From a virus, in IMG/VR virus record IMGVR_UViG_3300017598_000745, positions 1 to 21,150 of that record: a stretch of 21,150 nucleotides of DNA; one strand, given 5' to 3'. The notes below the pieces were generated by a model. It was not told the DNA's origin, made no database searches, and saw only the letters and a program-made list of their open reading frames with translations. Of this stretch, positions 1 through 21,150 are shown one piece after another. Numbering within the stretch: position 1 is the first letter of the stretch; every line of letters begins with the position of its first letter. The translations under genes were made by a program, and so were the position numbers.

Positions 1-663
1 ACGGACGGGTCTACTATCGGCAGGGCCCCCACTCGCATTGAAAAACCAGTTATGGATCAGCAATGGCCGGACTGGATGACCGATACCGGGGCCGCTGAAG
101 TTCAGCATTACATGTATAATGAGCAAGACCCTCTGAACTTCTATATTTATCCCCCGCAGCCTTCTTCAAGCCCGGGGTATGTGGAGCTGGTTTATTCTGC
201 TGTCCCGCCTCCACTCATCTATAAATGGTTGCCGTCCACCGCCATGTATTCCTATATCTATTCCGGTGGGGGGTATGTCCTGCCCACCAAGACCAACGGC
301 TATCTTTACCAGTCGCAAAGCTCTTATGATTCGTCCGATACCACCGGAAGTACGGAACCTGTATGGCCTGAATACACCGAAGGGTTGTTCCTCGCTGTCA
401 TTGATAACGACTTTGGATGGACCGCCGTACCTTTTGACGTCCTTCAAACAATTTCCCTGGCCAATGTCTATTCCCCGATTATCCTGGACTATATTCTGGC
501 CAGAGCTTACTCCGTTGATGCCAATATCAGCCCTGTGGCGGCTGGAAGAGCCGGGTTTCATCTAAACGCCTACCTGTCGGCCCTTGGCGCTGGTGAGCAG
601 GCTGAGAGTATTTACGATCCAAACATTCAGAGCGCCGCGAAACCTTCTTCCAGGGGGGTATAA
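1..663 (+). CDS. Phage adaptor (tail-connector) protein, 5' end cut by the window
   Basis: The frame is open from base 1, so the ATG at 52 is probably internal and the gene begins upstream. Visible residues 1-220 match a phage adaptor-type family I know as DUF6682. The hallmarks are HYMYNEQDPLNFYIYPPQP, then GYVELVYSA, and near the end a LANVYSPIILDYILARAYS stretch followed by a helical tail. Such proteins are thought to sit at the portal/tail junction of short-tailed phages. Between the two family blocks (about bases 217-450) lies a beta-rich insertion with an NG..Y...TTGSTEPVWP signature, a small bead module seen in many phage structural proteins. The next gene starts right after the stop codon, so the two are probably translationally coupled. 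The fold assignment is family recognition; the exact position in the virion is inference. Confidence 0.8.
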   Translation, partial: TDGSTIGRAPTRIEKPVMDQQWPDWMTDTGAAEVQHYMYNEQDPLNFYIYPPQPSSSPGYVELVYSAVPPPLIYKWLPSTAMYSYIYSGGGYVLPTKTNGYLYQSQSSYDSSDTTGSTEPVWPEYTEGLFLAVIDNDFGWTAVPFDVLQTISLANVYSPIILDYILARAYSVDANISPVAAGRAGFHLNAYLSALGAGEQAESIYDPNIQSAAKPSSRGV

Positions 664-10379: not shown

Positions 10380-10596
10380 AAATGTAAAGACACCGGCAAT
10401 TCCATCTGTCCCCCAAGGCCTTGACCATGGGCTATCCGACTTTTTGACGGCCATGAAGCAGCAGCTTGACACCATGACGGGGTTAGGGTCTGCCAAGAAT
10501 AAATATGTAACCCGTAGAGAACTTGAAAATATGGGGGTTGATTTAAAGCTGCTTGATTCGGACACCGGGAGGTATGATTTTGACAGTATCTTGTGA
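10372..10596 (+). CDS. Small conserved phage structural-operon protein
   Basis: 74 residues; GGAG lies seven bases upstream and the start overlaps the end of the hub gene by eight bases. The pattern IPSVPQGLDHGLSDFLTAMKQ...GLGSAKNKYVTRREL matches a short family often found right after this hub gene in phages, in which a proline-rich start is followed by a helix and a (R/K)xVTxRDL motif. No enzyme motif or membrane segment is visible. It may be a minor virion or assembly protein. Function unknown. Confidence 0.75.
   Translation: MGRNVKTPAIPSVPQGLDHGLSDFLTAMKQQLDTMTGLGSAKNKYVTRRELENMGVDLKLLDSDTGRYDFDSIL
10567..10572 (+). promoter_or_regulatory. Ribosome binding site of the GNAT-like gene
   Basis: GGGAGG is one base from the ATG at 10574 and seven bases from an in-frame TTG at 10580. 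The spacing favours the TTG; codon preference favours the ATG. Confidence 0.5.
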
Positions 10597-11158
10597 GTTA
10601 TACCCCTATGTTGAGATAGACGGCTGTTGGACTTTTACGGACACCTTTATCAAGGGCCTCTATCGGAAAATGTTTGATGACGACGACATTCAGCACACCT
10701 TCCTGGACGGCAGCGTTCAATCGGAAGACGATCTGGTAAGGCGATTGAAGAGGGACGACCACAAGGTATTTATCGTTGGCGGGGAAGAAAAGGTCAAAGC
10801 CCTTGTATGGCTGTCGGATTTCAGGCAGGCCACGGCGTATGCCCACTTCTGGGTTGCAAAGGAATACCGGGGAGGACTTGAGGCGGTTAATATTGCCTTT
10901 AAGTTCCTGGAAGAGATGCTTTATATGTCTGACCATGAGGGTTGTTTCATGTTTGATGTCTTATTCGCTTATGTGTCTGAAGAAAACAAGGGCGTGGTGA
11001 AACTGCTGAACAGCCTGTATGCTCTGTCACAGCAGGGAGACAGTGTTTTGTCTGGCAAAGTCCTTGGCGTTATTCCCAACGCCATGATCGACCATTATAA
11101 AAAGCGGTCCGTAAACGCTATTCTGGGTTACGCCACACGAAAGGAGAACGTATCATGA
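10574..11158 (+). CDS. GNAT-like (N-acetyltransferase-fold) protein
   Basis: 194 residues from this ATG. The start is uncertain: TTG at 10553 is possible but lacks a ribosome binding site, and TTG at 10580 has the ideal spacing (seven bases) to GGGAGG at 10567-10572, which is too close to the ATG at 10574. The sequence resembles divergent GNAT-like phage proteins located at this spot: a beta-strand around KVFIVGGEEKVKALVWL, a HFWVAKEYRGG motif where the acetyl-CoA loop would be, then helix and strand segments and an NAMIDHY stretch. The classic Q/RxxGxG/A loop is imperfect. It could acetylate a virion or host protein, or be a catalytically dead structural relative. It overlaps the previous gene by 23 bases and the next by four (ATGA). 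Confidence 0.6.
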   Translation: MILTVSCELYPYVEIDGCWTFTDTFIKGLYRKMFDDDDIQHTFLDGSVQSEDDLVRRLKRDDHKVFIVGGEEKVKALVWLSDFRQATAYAHFWVAKEYRGGLEAVNIAFKFLEEMLYMSDHEGCFMFDVLFAYVSEENKGVVKLLNSLYALSQQGDSVLSGKVLGVIPNAMIDHYKKRSVNAILGYATRKENVS

Positions 11159-16900: not shown

Positions 16901-19900
16901 CAACGAAGGAAGAGACAAAACCTTTATCCACCGAACTCCGCACCAAAACCGGCAAACCCTTCAAGACGGAAAAGTCGGCCAGGTTTCACCTTAAAACCTC
17001 TAAGAAATCAGAGTTTGACTATGACCTGATTAAAGAAGATAAGGGGTATATCTGGAGAGAGAAAGCCGAGAAACCAACCCCTTCCCAAAAGCTGCTCCTT
17101 GAAGATGAAAAAGCCGCTGATAGAAGGCGGGTGTTGGCAGAGGGAGCTAAGAACATCAGGATAGCCATAATGCACTCTGGCCGTCTAAGACGTTCGGACA
17201 AGAGCTTTAAGGGTGAGTTTAGGGATGCTTTAAAAGGTCCCGGGTCGTGGCCTCTCTGGATGTTCAGGAAAGATGGTTTATCCTTTGATGAGATGGTATC
17301 GGCCATGATTGAAGCCAAGTGGCTTCCAGAGGGTGCTACGGAACAAGACTTGATGGATGCCATAGAACAGAACATTACACAGAGGATATCCGGGGAAGGT
17401 ACACGAGAATATCTTAACAAGAAGATACAAGAAGAGATAGACTTATACAAGGATTTAGAACGTCAAGCGGGGGTGTCAAAAAATGACATTGCAAAAGCTG
17501 AAAGAGATGGCATACAAGCTGCAAATGAGGAAGCTAAGAAAAGAAAGGATAGCCGAGATCCAATCGATAAAGAAGGGTTTGATTGGGGAGCCGGGGAATG
17601 GACAAAAGAAGAACCGACCTTCAAGCTAACCCCTGAAGAACCTACCACACATGAGAAAGCCGCCCTTCTTGAAAAAGAAGGTGTGGTTAAACGTCCCAAG
17701 AAACAATCTTCCAAAAATGTATTCCCATCTGGTGAAGGGATAAAGACTGTCCCAGGCAAACAAAAGAAATTGTTTGGCCCTGAAAAGGGCGAGACTTTGG
17801 ATTTGTTTGACCAACCTACTACCCGCAAGTCTGTAGTTCCCACAGAAAAAGACTTAATTGCATATCATAATACCACTGAAACCGAGTTATTGTCAGCCTT
17901 AGAAAGTGGTGGTTTAGCCGTACCCTCCATCGCAATCACTCAAAAAGACATCCAATTTGACAAATACGGTGAGGTTACATTGGTAGGCAGAAAAGAATTG
18001 ATTGACCCTGCTGAATACGGGAATCGTGTTTTTGACTCAGATATATATTCCCCCCGCGTACCTGGTAAGGAATGGAATGTAAACAGGAAAGAGGGTAATG
18101 AGGTATTTGAACGCTTTGAGCCTGTCATGGATGAGGTAGATGAGTCTAAGTGGTTGTTTCAGAACGATTATGAAAAAGGGAAAGATTCATTTATTGACTA
18201 TGCTGATCGGTCTTCAGCCTTAAAGGTTGCTTTTTTAAGAGATCAGGGTGTCCCGGTTAGGATTCCGAGAAAACCAGTTTCGCTTCGGTTTGCGTTTTCT
18301 GACACAAAAGCGGTTTCGGACTACCTAAAGTCGCATGGAGGAAACATCCACAATATTGATTTCCAGAGTAAAGAGCATGAGGATTTGTCAAGAGTAGTTG
18401 AAGAAGGGATAAAAGAATATACTGAGAAACAATACCCTGGAAGGCGAAGCCTGGAAACAATATCCCAACGCTTAAAAGAAATGAACTTTGGAGAAGATGG
18501 ATTCCTTCATTACAATCTTTTAAGCCAACTTGGAGACGATGTTAAAACAGTCAAAGACAGACCAACAGAGGTAGATAAACGCAAATTAGAAAGCAGGGTT
18601 AAGGGAAAATTCACTAAAAAACTCTCAGCTCAATACTTAGATTGGGTCAATAAAATTGCAGATCCGATGTATGGTGATCCATACCTTAAACTTGGAAGAA
18701 AGAAAGTCCCTTACACCCTTGATAATATCGTTCAAGCGATTAAGAATGAGGGGTTGAAAGCCAAGGAAAAGACTATAGTTTTTGGTCCTGGTTCTGCTCG
18801 GGCTACTGCTGCTGAAGAAATTAGGTCAATTAAGGGGTTGCACAAACGAAAAGGCAGGCTGGTTTCAGGAGAAGAAGTATCTAAAGCAAAAGAATTGCAG
18901 GAAAAGGAACGAGAGGCTTTTACAGATCAGCTAATCAATAAATATAAATATAAGAATTGGCGCGGTGATGTTGACGTATGGAATGCTCTTGACGACGCCA
19001 TGAGATCTATAGGGAAGTTTCTATCTGGTAAAAATCGTTCTGTACAAAGGATGCAAAGCATTCTGAATCGACATGGATTTGAAAATGTAGGTGATACATT
19101 AGCCAGAAAAGGTATCCGTTTCGCTAACATACTTATTGATACCCCTACCCAGTATTTTGAAGCTAAACCCCGAAGGGCCGTTGATTTTAGTGAATTTACG
19201 GGAGCTGTTGTACCCACTACGGCAAGCAAGAAGCTAAAAGCGGCACTTACTAAAACAGGGTTGCAGGTCAGGACATATAAAAAATATGATGCAGAGAGTA
19301 GGCATAAAGCTGTGGCAGGGTTTCATAAGAAACCTGGGGTGTTATTTGCTACAGGAACAAAGACCCCCAAAGGCCTCCCATACAACACCGTCAGCGACAT
19401 CGTAGCCTCCATCTACTCCAAGCTCACCATGCCGGACGTTTCCGTTCGTGTTCTCCCTGATGTAGCCAACCTCGGACCTAAGAGAATTGACAGGTTCGGG
19501 ATTGACCCGGAAAAGCAGATGGTCAGGGGCGTATTCACCCAAGAAAACGGTAAGCCTGTTATCTACGTTTTCGCTAACGCCATGAACAGCAAGAAAGACG
19601 TGGTAAACGTGGCATTAGAAGAAGTTTTTCACTACGGCCTGTTTAAAGCATTGGGTCCCAAATATAATCTTGAACTAAGCCCAATCTACAAAAAGCATGA
19701 AAAGGCTATTAAGGACGCTCTTGGCGCTGATTACGATATTGACTTAAGGACTGTCGAAGGCCGCGCGGAGGCTGTAGATGAATGGCTTGTAAAATCCCTT
19801 GCTAAAGACCCTGATTCCGTCCCTGGCAGCGTGTGGTCTAAAATCATAGCTGCGGTTAAGAGGTTCCTGAGAAACGCAGGGGTGAAGGTCTCATACAGTG

Positions 19901-21150
19901 AGGGGGAGCTTAAACGCCTGATTGAAGATACGTTGACGAAAAAGCAACCGGATATTGGACAACTACCCACCAAAACTGCAAAAGGTGTCCCAATTAGATA
20001 TGTTCCGAAAAAGACTCTTGCTCCTGCATTTGGATTTTATGACCCAAAAGCGAATGAGATTTATGTGAGGGAAGATTTACCAAAGGCTGTAAAACGTTTC
20101 GTAACACAACATGAGATATATCATTCAACTGATGAAAACTTAAATAAGAAACTCACTTCTGAAATAAAAGCTAACTTCTTCCCTGGGATTAAAGACCCTA
20201 TTGGATTATTGAAAACAGTTGTAGCAAGCATGACACCTGAACGTTTGAAGTTTTACACAGGTGTTGGGACAGGCGACCCCACCCAAATCAAATCCATCTA
20301 CAATCAAGGCACATTCGACCCTCAGAACCCGGATATACGGTTCCAAGTCAGTGCCTACCAGGGGGGTCCCGCTGAGGTAGTAGGCGGGTATAAGGATGAG
20401 TTTATAGGTACGGGTGCAACGGGGGCGGCTTTCGGGTATGGGCATTATTTTTCGAGCTTGGAAGAAGTTGGAAGGGCGTATGCTCAAATAGCTGAAGACC
20501 GGCGCCAAGAGAAAATTAATGATGAAGTTGCCGCCAAATTAATTTCTAAACTAATCCCCTTGCGAGACAAAAAAACGATTACTGAAGATGCCTACCAGGA
20601 CGCTTTAGGCGATGCAGAAGTCCCTCATTTATGGGATCAACTAAAGAAATATCCATTTGACCTTGATGTTAATACTATTGTTGATTCTGTAGTTGATAAA
20701 TATAAAGGAAAACCGATTCGCCACCTCCATAAAGTTACACTCCACAAAGGCAAATCTCCGTCAGAATATAAGTGGTTGGATTGGGATAAGAAAGTCCCTG
20801 CAAAGGGTCTTGATAGGCTGATAGCTGAAGCAGAAAAGGAATCGAAAACTGATAAAGACATCCTTGAGCTTGTTCGAGAGCTTAATATGTCAAAGCAAAC
20901 TGGTGTCGATGGCGAAACCCTCTACAAGCGTATTTCCAGTGTCTTTGGTGAGATACGGAATAGGATAAATAAAGAAGAGGGCAGGATGTACTCGACATCT
21001 GGGCAGTCGTTTTATAATAGGGGTGCCTCCGCCTTCCTTCTCCGTGCAGGCATAGACGGTATCCGCTATCCTGCCGGTTCACTGTCCGGGATGAAAGATA
21101 AGGGTGCAAAGAATTATGTCGTATTTGACCCTAAAGCTATCACTATCGAG
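13906..21150 (+). CDS. Giant polyvalent phage protein (metallopeptidase-like and ADP-ribosyltransferase-like domains), open at window end
   Basis: 2415 codons without a stop, read through to the last base; AGGA lies six bases upstream of the ATG. In order: a Trp/Gly/Ala-rich hydrophobic region (about 111-310, including WWVYNIADTIPWLMASIIPG, then LAEGTTEALEEPSEE); charged Lys/Glu/Pro linkers; a GPIVLYKEKG...GKWQITSFDERGFIGDT module (about 800-855); a KTGKPFKTEKSARFHL module (about 1006-1050); a helical module (about 1070-1170); possible clamp-binding motifs (1286-1301); a large domain from about 1318 to 1790 with YHNTT, GGLAVPSIAI and YFEAKPRRAV; a zincin-like domain with EEVFH (1905-1909); a second with HEIYH (2069-2073); and an ADP-ribosyltransferase-like domain (about 2147-2415; IGTGATGAAFGYGHYF, AGIDGIRYP, NYVVFD). 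These are hallmarks of phage polyvalent proteins thought to be injected with DNA to act on the host. Activity is untested. Confidence 0.9.
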   Translation, partial: MPIFPSLEPESKSPSYDELRKQLSAQGLDLVPVEEPADNDGVFESLGKGITHGTLGLGRSIGSGVQWLGNRLGSETISDLGEDAAGYWGKLQEGFEPSKDIQGTLWEKPELLADLSWWVYNIADTIPWLMASIIPGIGAAKYIKIAGKAVQLTPQAIARIAHYGAALTGGATAGSLEGAQTYEEVLKQTGDEKKAARAGEMMAGFAAGLNAIGVSKILGKAGSGLAGKAKKAGIGFLAEGTTEALEEPSEEIAKGVSLGLSAGQTAANAATALRDRGLTVFPIAGVAGAGASVMTNITEPPKRQKKTKSPEMDALVNLLKQKDLSREALESMRKDLKDDSPAAQEIDKILSLLPEKEGKGVKVEPEKEGKPIELTEEMVKETPHAEEIRKKAEKPSEEKGDEGEEGRRLRLRDVEKDRVEAEKEEEIKEPPEVKEPWEMSLVEYAKSKLPKEQADQITDESQAKSFRGQYIKDMKGWIAANKTVPSEVLKDYPDLQPPPEITKPIPPEAVKSTTKEGPITWLEKPWELPESEATAYIKNLEEGKKGDLIKFAKTWVDENGNWHMPGDTLEQQLKGRSEKDIVEFIKWAQSQSRHVERFAASPAATELRVRGVPVDTIKWQQENLREAVKSTTIDEGKKPTTAMPKKEKPSEEAKVAPAKGEVGVVESELEPLTLEEIEATTKANAIAETKDLIERELRLNGESPVVEALRKGLDVLEKQAKPILQPPPKEAKKEKPSPEPEKPIVEPVKEAKKPIVTEFRQLLTDLKKEQGEKAYFDDRLKGPRERESQEVLDAYRKQHPKGPIVLYKEKGDRGVMITRSSKKPGKWQITSFDERGFIGDTLADTEEAAIGEAYREGNRIPDPERAEKQMVSEGFRKGIIETEKVQAEWQEKAKQFKAKKPITEGVRNRIYNRLNLALLAAERSGMAPGVELPASMVEDLRKDARIMADLIADEYAEKKGAGAIWLSKKLKEDIWLMELQDKAIEIQRQEKQPGIKVAPTKEETKPLSTELRTKTGKPFKTEKSARFHLKTSKKSEFDYDLIKEDKGYIWREKAEKPTPSQKLLLEDEKAADRRRVLAEGAKNIRIAIMHSGRLRRSDKSFKGEFRDALKGPGSWPLWMFRKDGLSFDEMVSAMIEAKWLPEGATEQDLMDAIEQNITQRISGEGTREYLNKKIQEEIDLYKDLERQAGVSKNDIAKAERDGIQAANEEAKKRKDSRDPIDKEGFDWGAGEWTKEEPTFKLTPEEPTTHEKAALLEKEGVVKRPKKQSSKNVFPSGEGIKTVPGKQKKLFGPEKGETLDLFDQPTTRKSVVPTEKDLIAYHNTTETELLSALESGGLAVPSIAITQKDIQFDKYGEVTLVGRKELIDPAEYGNRVFDSDIYSPRVPGKEWNVNRKEGNEVFERFEPVMDEVDESKWLFQNDYEKGKDSFIDYADRSSALKVAFLRDQGVPVRIPRKPVSLRFAFSDTKAVSDYLKSHGGNIHNIDFQSKEHEDLSRVVEEGIKEYTEKQYPGRRSLETISQRLKEMNFGEDGFLHYNLLSQLGDDVKTVKDRPTEVDKRKLESRVKGKFTKKLSAQYLDWVNKIADPMYGDPYLKLGRKKVPYTLDNIVQAIKNEGLKAKEKTIVFGPGSARATAAEEIRSIKGLHKRKGRLVSGEEVSKAKELQEKEREAFTDQLINKYKYKNWRGDVDVWNALDDAMRSIGKFLSGKNRSVQRMQSILNRHGFENVGDTLARKGIRFANILIDTPTQYFEAKPRRAVDFSEFTGAVVPTTASKKLKAALTKTGLQVRTYKKYDAESRHKAVAGFHKKPGVLFATGTKTPKGLPYNTVSDIVASIYSKLTMPDVSVRVLPDVANLGPKRIDRFGIDPEKQMVRGVFTQENGKPVIYVFANAMNSKKDVVNVALEEVFHYGLFKALGPKYNLELSPIYKKHEKAIKDALGADYDIDLRTVEGRAEAVDEWLVKSLAKDPDSVPGSVWSKIIAAVKRFLRNAGVKVSYSEGELKRLIEDTLTKKQPDIGQLPTKTAKGVPIRYVPKKTLAPAFGFYDPKANEIYVREDLPKAVKRFVTQHEIYHSTDENLNKKLTSEIKANFFPGIKDPIGLLKTVVASMTPERLKFYTGVGTGDPTQIKSIYNQGTFDPQNPDIRFQVSAYQGGPAEVVGGYKDEFIGTGATGAAFGYGHYFSSLEEVGRAYAQIAEDRRQEKINDEVAAKLISKLIPLRDKKTITEDAYQDALGDAEVPHLWDQLKKYPFDLDVNTIVDSVVDKYKGKPIRHLHKVTLHKGKSPSEYKWLDWDKKVPAKGLDRLIAEAEKESKTDKDILELVRELNMSKQTGVDGETLYKRISSVFGEIRNRINKEEGRMYSTSGQSFYNRGASAFLLRAGIDGIRYPAGSLSGMKDKGAKNYVVFDPKAITIE
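15426..15448 (+). repeat. Direct repeat in polyvalent gene linker, copy 1
   Basis: 23 bases identical to 15780-15802, encoding EAVKSTT. The two copies are 354 bases (118 codons) apart and frame one small Trp-rich module. They lie in linkers, as expected if a module was inserted or duplicated through short homology. Confidence 0.9.
15780..15802 (+). repeat. Direct repeat in polyvalent gene linker, copy 2
   Basis: Identical to 15426-15448. After it the sequence turns into a Lys/Pro/Glu-rich linker. Confidence 0.9.
15838..16116 (+). repeat. Second linker repeat pair, KKEKPS
   Basis: 18 identical bases at 15838-15855 and 16099-16116, encoding KKEKPS, 261 bases (87 codons) apart. They flank a helical segment (EEIEATTKANAIAETKDLIE) that stands alone between linkers. 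Confidence 0.85.
16154..16611 (+). repeat. Third linker repeat pair, AKKPI
   Basis: 17 identical bases at 16154-16170 and 16595-16611, encoding AKKPI in both copies, 441 bases (147 codons) apart. They bracket the module with GKWQITSFDERGF. Confidence 0.85.

Follow-up and report, generated by a model that had tools for sequence, protein, structure and literature searches.

Among the described ADP-ribosyltransferases (ARTs), DarT has DNA bases as its substrate, and in the Thermus enzyme the strand-1 histidine H13 contacts the adenine-side ribose and the glutamate E160 is needed (extracts of PMC9967889). The ART glutamate of DarT1 is E152 (extract of PMC11543638). Two further clades are recognized by their motifs: in the Tpt1 clade (H-H-h) a hydrophobic residue replaces the glutamate (extracts of PMC9967889), and the HYD2 clade is characterized by H-Y-D, with the aspartate located in strand 5 (extract of PMC5512222). 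The PBECR5 family has been placed elsewhere, namely among the predicted RNases of the BECR type (barnase/EndoU/colicin/RelE). No mention of the name “PBECR5” was found in open-licence PMC papers, where a search by title and abstract start also retrieved no proposal of an ART fold for this family. The term “BECR” has 0 occurrences in the accessible portion of a survey from 2022 on NAD/ADP-ribose systems of viruses (PMC9503650).

Here we describe a PBECR5-type domain encoded on a virus contig of 21,150 bases; the window analyzed is this entire record. Judging from predicted structures, it is likely that residues 1313-1803 of a giant phage protein form a divergent, DarT-like domain of the ADP-ribosyltransferase superfamily, which is housed in a probable ejection protein and has been misnamed as an RNase. 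We outline the genomic setting, conservation and predicted fold of the domain, weigh the alternative explanations and compare it with the known systems.

Genomic setting and domain architecture

The domain is part of a polyvalent protein, which is encoded on the plus strand by one stop-free frame of 2415 codons that runs open off the 3' end of the contig (Table 1). The upstream genes match head and packaging, tail collar and S74-chaperone tail-fibre families, and an internal virion gene matches phrog_511 (E 1.7e-93). Between the internal virion and the tail-fibre genes lies a 201-aa protein (10553-11158) with no Pfam or PHROGs match. In Cobetia phage Carin1 the homologue, gp32, is located after the nozzle and a putative lysozyme, and in Acinetobacter phage Ab9 it is preceded by proteins annotated as internal virion protein and endolysin. 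Since the neighbours here, in Carin1 and in Ab9 are tail and internal-virion genes, the setting suggests that the giant protein is an ejection protein, which would enter the host cell along with the phage DNA. A search of open-licence PMC papers for virion proteomics of Carin1 found no publication.

The four motifs from which the initial annotation had started are all present in this one frame at the places noted, and residue 1321 is a histidine in the translation. The annotated range of residues 1318-1770 likewise captured the domain; its end, however, fell about 30 residues short, as a conserved helix and strand continue to about residue 1800. Natural relatives, L099 among them, have a much reduced insertion between the two conserved parts of the domain. 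Two short versions, L099:6001-7014 (338 aa) and L103:6001-7038 (346 aa), lack most of it and, at about 340 aa, are convenient constructs for structure work.

Table 1. Position of the PBECR5-type domain and its conserved elements in the window. Assigned roles of single residues are predictions.
Feature	Position	Strand	Basis
Polyvalent protein gene, 2415 aa	13906..21150	+	Single open frame; closes run of tail/head/internal-virion matches
Whole PBECR5-type domain, aa 1313-1803	17842..19314	+	phrog_22978 match; AlphaFold2 model of 17815-19305
YHNTT, aa 1320-1324, end of strand 1, with His1321 (predicted NAD+-ribose-binding histidine)	17863..17877	+	Alignment, model
GGLAVPSIAIT, aa 1335-1345, turn and strand after helix 1	17908..17940	+	Alignment, model
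YSPRVPG, aa 1381-1387, after Asp1379	18046..18066	+	Alignment
Mostly helical insertion, aa 1394-1588	18085..18669	+	Secondary structure of both models
Central beta-hairpin, aa 1589-1602	18670..18711	+	Window model
Conserved central motif YTLDNIV...GPGSARA, aa 1603-1633	18712..18804	+	Alignment
YFEAKPRRAVDF, aa 1750-1761, strand with Tyr1750, Glu1752 (predicted catalytic glutamate) and Lys1754	19153..19188	+	Alignment, model
C-terminal strand-helix-strand, aa 1764-1791, including Pro1770	19195..19278	+	Alignment, model

Further elements were observed downstream of the domain in the same protein. An intact zincin-like HExxH motif, HEIYH, is found at 20110-20124 (aa 2069-2073), in a region with matches to the metallo-protease family phrog_87 (E 3.4e-4) and, below the cut-off, to DUF6782 (E 0.0015). 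A degenerate-looking zincin-like copy, LEEVFHYGLF, lies upstream of it (19615-19644, aa 1904-1913). Zincin-like peptidases may serve the processing of polyvalent proteins. The end of the frame (20341-21150, aa 2146-2415) reads AYQGG ... GTG ... GYGHYF ... NYVVFDPKAI and resembles a phage ART-type domain, with a glutamine at the expected histidine position. Its only Pfam match, to RES, is sub-threshold (E 0.21), and the region may be a second ART that has decayed or changed.

Family assignment and conservation

PF18814 (PBECR5) is the sole Pfam family above its cut-off across the whole 2415-aa protein, and the match spans residues 1311-1515 (E 3e-27, 96.5 bits versus a cut-off of 25). The complete domain matches phrog_22978, a family of function unknown (E 5.7e-31). 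Given these matches and the 279 IMG/VR stretches with a relative, the set of motifs is far beyond chance. The initial annotation had proposed an uncharacterised enzyme, and indeed a single large domain is conserved here, which is probably enzymatic and for which no assay was found; yet the family is already named PBECR5 and bears a nuclease prediction. An NCBIfam scan of the domain gave chance-level matches only, and sequence searches of solved structures, both with the domain and with the alignment, returned nothing below E 0.2.

Conservation was mapped in an alignment (A2) of 63 domains, comprising the window and 62 of 80 virus loci; the other 18 were left out, being more than 85% identical to a retained locus. 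Mean column identity is 25%, and the invariant residues therefore stand out: Ser1341, Gly1355, Asp1379, Tyr1750, Glu1752, Lys1754 and Pro1770 are identical in all 63 domains. His1321, which had been singled out from the sequence as a conserved polar residue, ranks among the most conserved positions (61 of 63, with one Asn and one gap). Arg1757 is retained in 60 of 63 domains, and position 1381 is occupied by Tyr (56) or Trp (7). The member with Asn in place of the strand-1 histidine, L063:6001-7404, retains both the Glu and the Lys.

The PF18814 match stops after approximately the first 205 residues, which leaves about 235 residues between its end and the YFEAKPRRAV block, and the most strongly conserved stretch of the domain thus lies outside the Pfam model.

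Predicted structure and fold comparison

Two members that are 28% identical were modelled with AlphaFold2, using different first sequences: the window domain with 63 sequences (pLDDT 95.2, pTM 0.86) and the short relative L099 with 60 sequences (pLDDT 94.6, pTM 0.90), of which 338 aa are matched versus 485 in the window query. For the L099 model, an alignment (A5) was used in which the window was joined by 51 of the 62 virus loci in A2 and by 8 of the 26 loci from bacterial genomes. Since the two sequence sets overlap, the models are only partly independent. Both show the same order of elements, a strand-helix-strands unit, followed by helices with a central hairpin and finally a strand-strand-helix-strand unit. 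The histidine resides in the first strand of each model (residues 14-20 with His18 in the window model, residues 11-17 with His15 in L099), and Glu1752 is located in the strand that opens the C-terminal group, i.e., a late strand, in both. ARTs carry a His or Arg in strand 1 and an acidic residue in a late strand close to the NAD+ site; the histidine (61/63) occupies the first of these positions and the late-strand glutamate (63/63) is a candidate for the second, which supports an assignment to this superfamily.

Foldseek found no match in the PDB at E <= 0.001 for either model. Upon comparison with VIA-align, which was run over Foldseek's best 1000 chains, ranks 1-4 were occupied by ART-superfamily structures only for both models (Z 6.7-8.2), and the next entries reached Z 5.0-5.3. 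For the window model these were yeast Tpt1 at rank 1 (7yw4, Z 8.2, 100 residues, 3.2 A), DarTG (7omu, Z 8.1, 136 residues, 3.4 A), DarT1 with NAD+ (8baq, Z 8.0, 139 residues, 3.4 A) and a Chromobacterium effector (8htc, Z 7.2, 140 residues, 4.1 A), followed at rank 5 by a sodium channel that aligned through helices only (Z 5.0). The L099 model matched DarTG of M. tuberculosis at rank 1 (7yk3, Z 7.7, 136 residues, 3.4 A), CteC with NAD+ (8ux2, Z 7.2, 147 residues, 3.8 A), DarT1 (8baq, Z 6.9, 142 residues, 3.6 A) and Tpt1 (7yw4, Z 6.7, 99 residues, 3.2 A), and a serine racemase took rank 5 (Z 5.3, 54 residues). We take 8htc and 8ux2 to be one protein, CteC.

Z values of 7-8 in VIA-align are often reached without a clear match and can reflect a common arrangement, but here the comparison gains weight because four ART entries agree, twice, with a gap to the remaining entries and with alignments that cover the domain end to end (e.g., model residues 10..488, 13..494 and 9..497). 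The domain probably adopts an ART fold that, in prediction, is closest to DarT, CteC and Tpt1, and in which the sheet is interrupted by helical insertions between its N- and C-terminal portions. At the outset, a clear match to the fold of a known enzyme had been named as an observation that would speak against a novel enzyme, and it has come about in part: the predicted structures match the ART fold, and this hints at a function other than that in the database name.

Does the domain, as its database name implies, instead belong to the BECR-fold, metal-independent endoRNases, which would employ a histidine and a serine or threonine in the active site and cut host or phage RNA after injection? 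The PF18814 match is well above the cut-off and extends to all 63 aligned members, and column 1358, situated within a strand, holds Thr or Ser in all 63 domains and may be the conserved Ser/Thr that BECR RNases have in a late strand of the core. Both predicted structures, however, open with a strand that holds the histidine rather than with a helix, and the Pfam match, ending at residue 1515, omits the block with the invariant Tyr, Glu and Lys. Moreover, no BECR enzyme was recognized among the VIA-align rows shown for either model, an absence that by itself excludes nothing. We consider a BECR RNase unlikely.

Two CdiA-CT/CysK complexes at ranks 30 and 34 of the L099 comparison (chain lengths 313-314) look like matches to the CysK chain, amid other enzymes of that kind. 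A sample of PBECR4 intended as a BECR control yielded 1 match in 199 genomes, too few for use. With Foldseek, 11 viral models matched at E <= 0.001. Several of them bear the label “Nuclease” or polyvalent-protein domain, and the 11 look like the PBECR5 family under its database name. Overall, the published functional class of PBECR5 as an RNase looks wrong, since the predicted fold of the whole domain fits an ART and is devoid of the PBECR-defining N-terminal helix with its histidine.

Profile comparison with DarT and KptA

The family was compared by hhalign with reference alignments of DarT (11 of 15 loci aligned) and KptA (7 of 8). At full length, no significant similarity to the 11 DarT sequences was obtained (Prob 0.2%, E 0.31); as a check of the tool, DarT and KptA themselves were aligned with Prob 72%. 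In the best alignment of the N-terminal block, His1321 is placed on the strand-1 histidine of DarT. The alignment of the C-terminal block begins after the glutamate of DarT, but prolonging its register across 7 columns free of gaps brings Glu1752 onto column 154, a glutamate invariant in the 11 sequences. The blocks were picked after the model had been seen, and column-shuffled DarT reached their scores 11 times and 7 times in 150 trials each; the register amounts to a hint rather than proof. Membership in the DarT family (PF14487) was rejected, as the window domain has no Pfam DarT match at E <= 1; a further mark of that family is a second-site arginine (R51 in Thermus DarT).

The top rank of yeast Tpt1 in the window-model comparison raises the question of whether the domain is an RNA 2'-phosphotransferase of the Tpt1/KptA type, which removes 2'-phosphates. 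The KptA profile showed no similarity to the family, either at full length or with the blocks, and the invariant Glu1752 stands against the glutamate-free motif of the Tpt1 clade mentioned above. A 2'-phosphotransferase thus appears very improbable.

Proposed mode of action

As an ADP-ribosyltransferase, the domain would arrive in the cell with the phage DNA and bind NAD+ in the cleft between the two sheet parts. His1321 in strand 1 would hold the adenine-side ribose, and Glu1752 in the YFEAK strand would activate the nicotinamide ribose, aided by Tyr1750 and Lys1754. ADP-ribose would then be passed to a host macromolecule. DarT acts on DNA bases, and the structure of the Chromobacterium effector retrieved by VIA-align was solved with ubiquitin; hence, the fold does not reveal the target.

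An ART fold might also be put to a use other than transfer, either as a binding or structural module or as an NADase that merely destroys NAD+. The lack of any assay found, and the 1 of 63 members with Asn for the histidine, are compatible with such a role, which is nevertheless of low probability in our view: Glu, Lys, Tyr, Ser and Asp residues are kept in 63 of 63 domains at a mean column identity of 25%, and this would be unusual for a purely structural domain.

We tentatively put forward the possibility that PBECR5 represents a new and widespread clade of virion-delivered ARTs, marked by a Y-x-E-x-K signature and by large helical insertions in a DarT/Tpt1-like core. Such enzymes would modify the transcription machinery or host DNA, tRNA or mRNA during the initial minutes of infection, and the nuclease name would long have hidden them. 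If the ADP-ribosyltransferase reading is right, a family that counts hundreds of members in giant proteins of phages would pass from predicted RNases to predicted NAD+-dependent ADP-ribosyltransferases, and the relevant assay would concern NAD+ and ADP-ribose, instead of RNA cleavage. Furthermore, a DarT-like fold would join the weapons carried in by phages, and there may be a link to NAD+-based bacterial defences.

Distribution of the domain

Within the searches made, the PBECR5-type domain is mainly found in phages. By tblastn, the window domain retrieved 3 of 50,697 phage records, and a Lachnoclostridium-type member as query added Bacteroides phage BF1-TP2, which brings the phage records to 4; cultured phages with the domain include Carin1, Ab9 and BF1-TP2. 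An IMG/VR scan with a five-sequence alignment as query identified 279 stretches that encode a relative. In 78 of the best 80, which were kept, the frame around the domain comprises at least 1000 codons, many of these frames being cut by contig ends. A scan of bacterial genomes yielded 26 loci, nearly all metagenome-assembled, with titles that include Proteobacteria, Chloroflexi, Gemmatimonadaceae, Phycisphaerales, Clostridia, Sulfurimonas, Porphyromonas and others. The spread among conjugative elements assumed in the initial annotation was not borne out: the window domain matched 4 of 72,556 plasmid records, from Vibrio, and two other members as queries gave no match.

Two Vibrio replicons (0.9 Mb) harbour stand-alone copies of 545 aa beside ndk (L004:8977-10614 and L005:4977-6614), and the occurrence of the domain as a separate protein makes its borders easier to fix. 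No antitoxin was recognized beside the Vibrio stand-alone copy, where 4 nearby proteins were scanned and gave no Pfam family. Two unusual arrangements were also observed. A Puniceicoccales protein (L101:1-7602) carries three N-terminal and two C-terminal domain motifs, i.e., tandem copies, and in the human gut phage record MT836973 (L003:4800-6780) the domain is split over two frames, which is a frameshift or a sequencing error.

Comparison with known systems

By sequence the domain is a member of PF18814 (PBECR5), as reflected in its score, and it differs from the family's description in that the complete domain, as predicted, folds without the initial histidine-bearing helix. With Tpt1/KptA (PF01885) it has in common a predicted fold that extends over about 100 residues (Z values of 8.2 and 6.7), in contrast to the absence of profile similarity and to the Glu1752 present in 63 of 63 domains where the Tpt1 clade has no glutamate. 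The polyvalent-protein ARTs of the HYD2 clade (Iyer et al. 2017) are similar in that they, too, belong to giant phage proteins and possess a strand-1 histidine, whereas the late-strand acid is an aspartate in HYD2 and a glutamate in all 63 domains here; at E <= 1, Pfam gave no ART-PolyVal match for the window protein. CteC, the Chromobacterium mono-ADP-ribosyltransferase, has a fold like the one predicted for the domain (Z 7.2 with either model), but it is a bacterial effector rather than phage-borne, and no sequence link was seen.

DarT/DarT1 (PF14487) differ from the domain in size (about 200 aa versus about 490 aa), in lacking significant sequence similarity and in their context, since the domain is part of a giant phage protein and no antitoxin was recognized here. 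They are alike in predicted fold (Z 6.9-8.1), in the spacing around the strand-1 histidine, which in the most frequent form of the family reads H-x5-N-L...G-G-L (Asn in 36 of 63 domains, Glu in the window protein), and in a glutamate that is followed by a strand-helix-strand unit.
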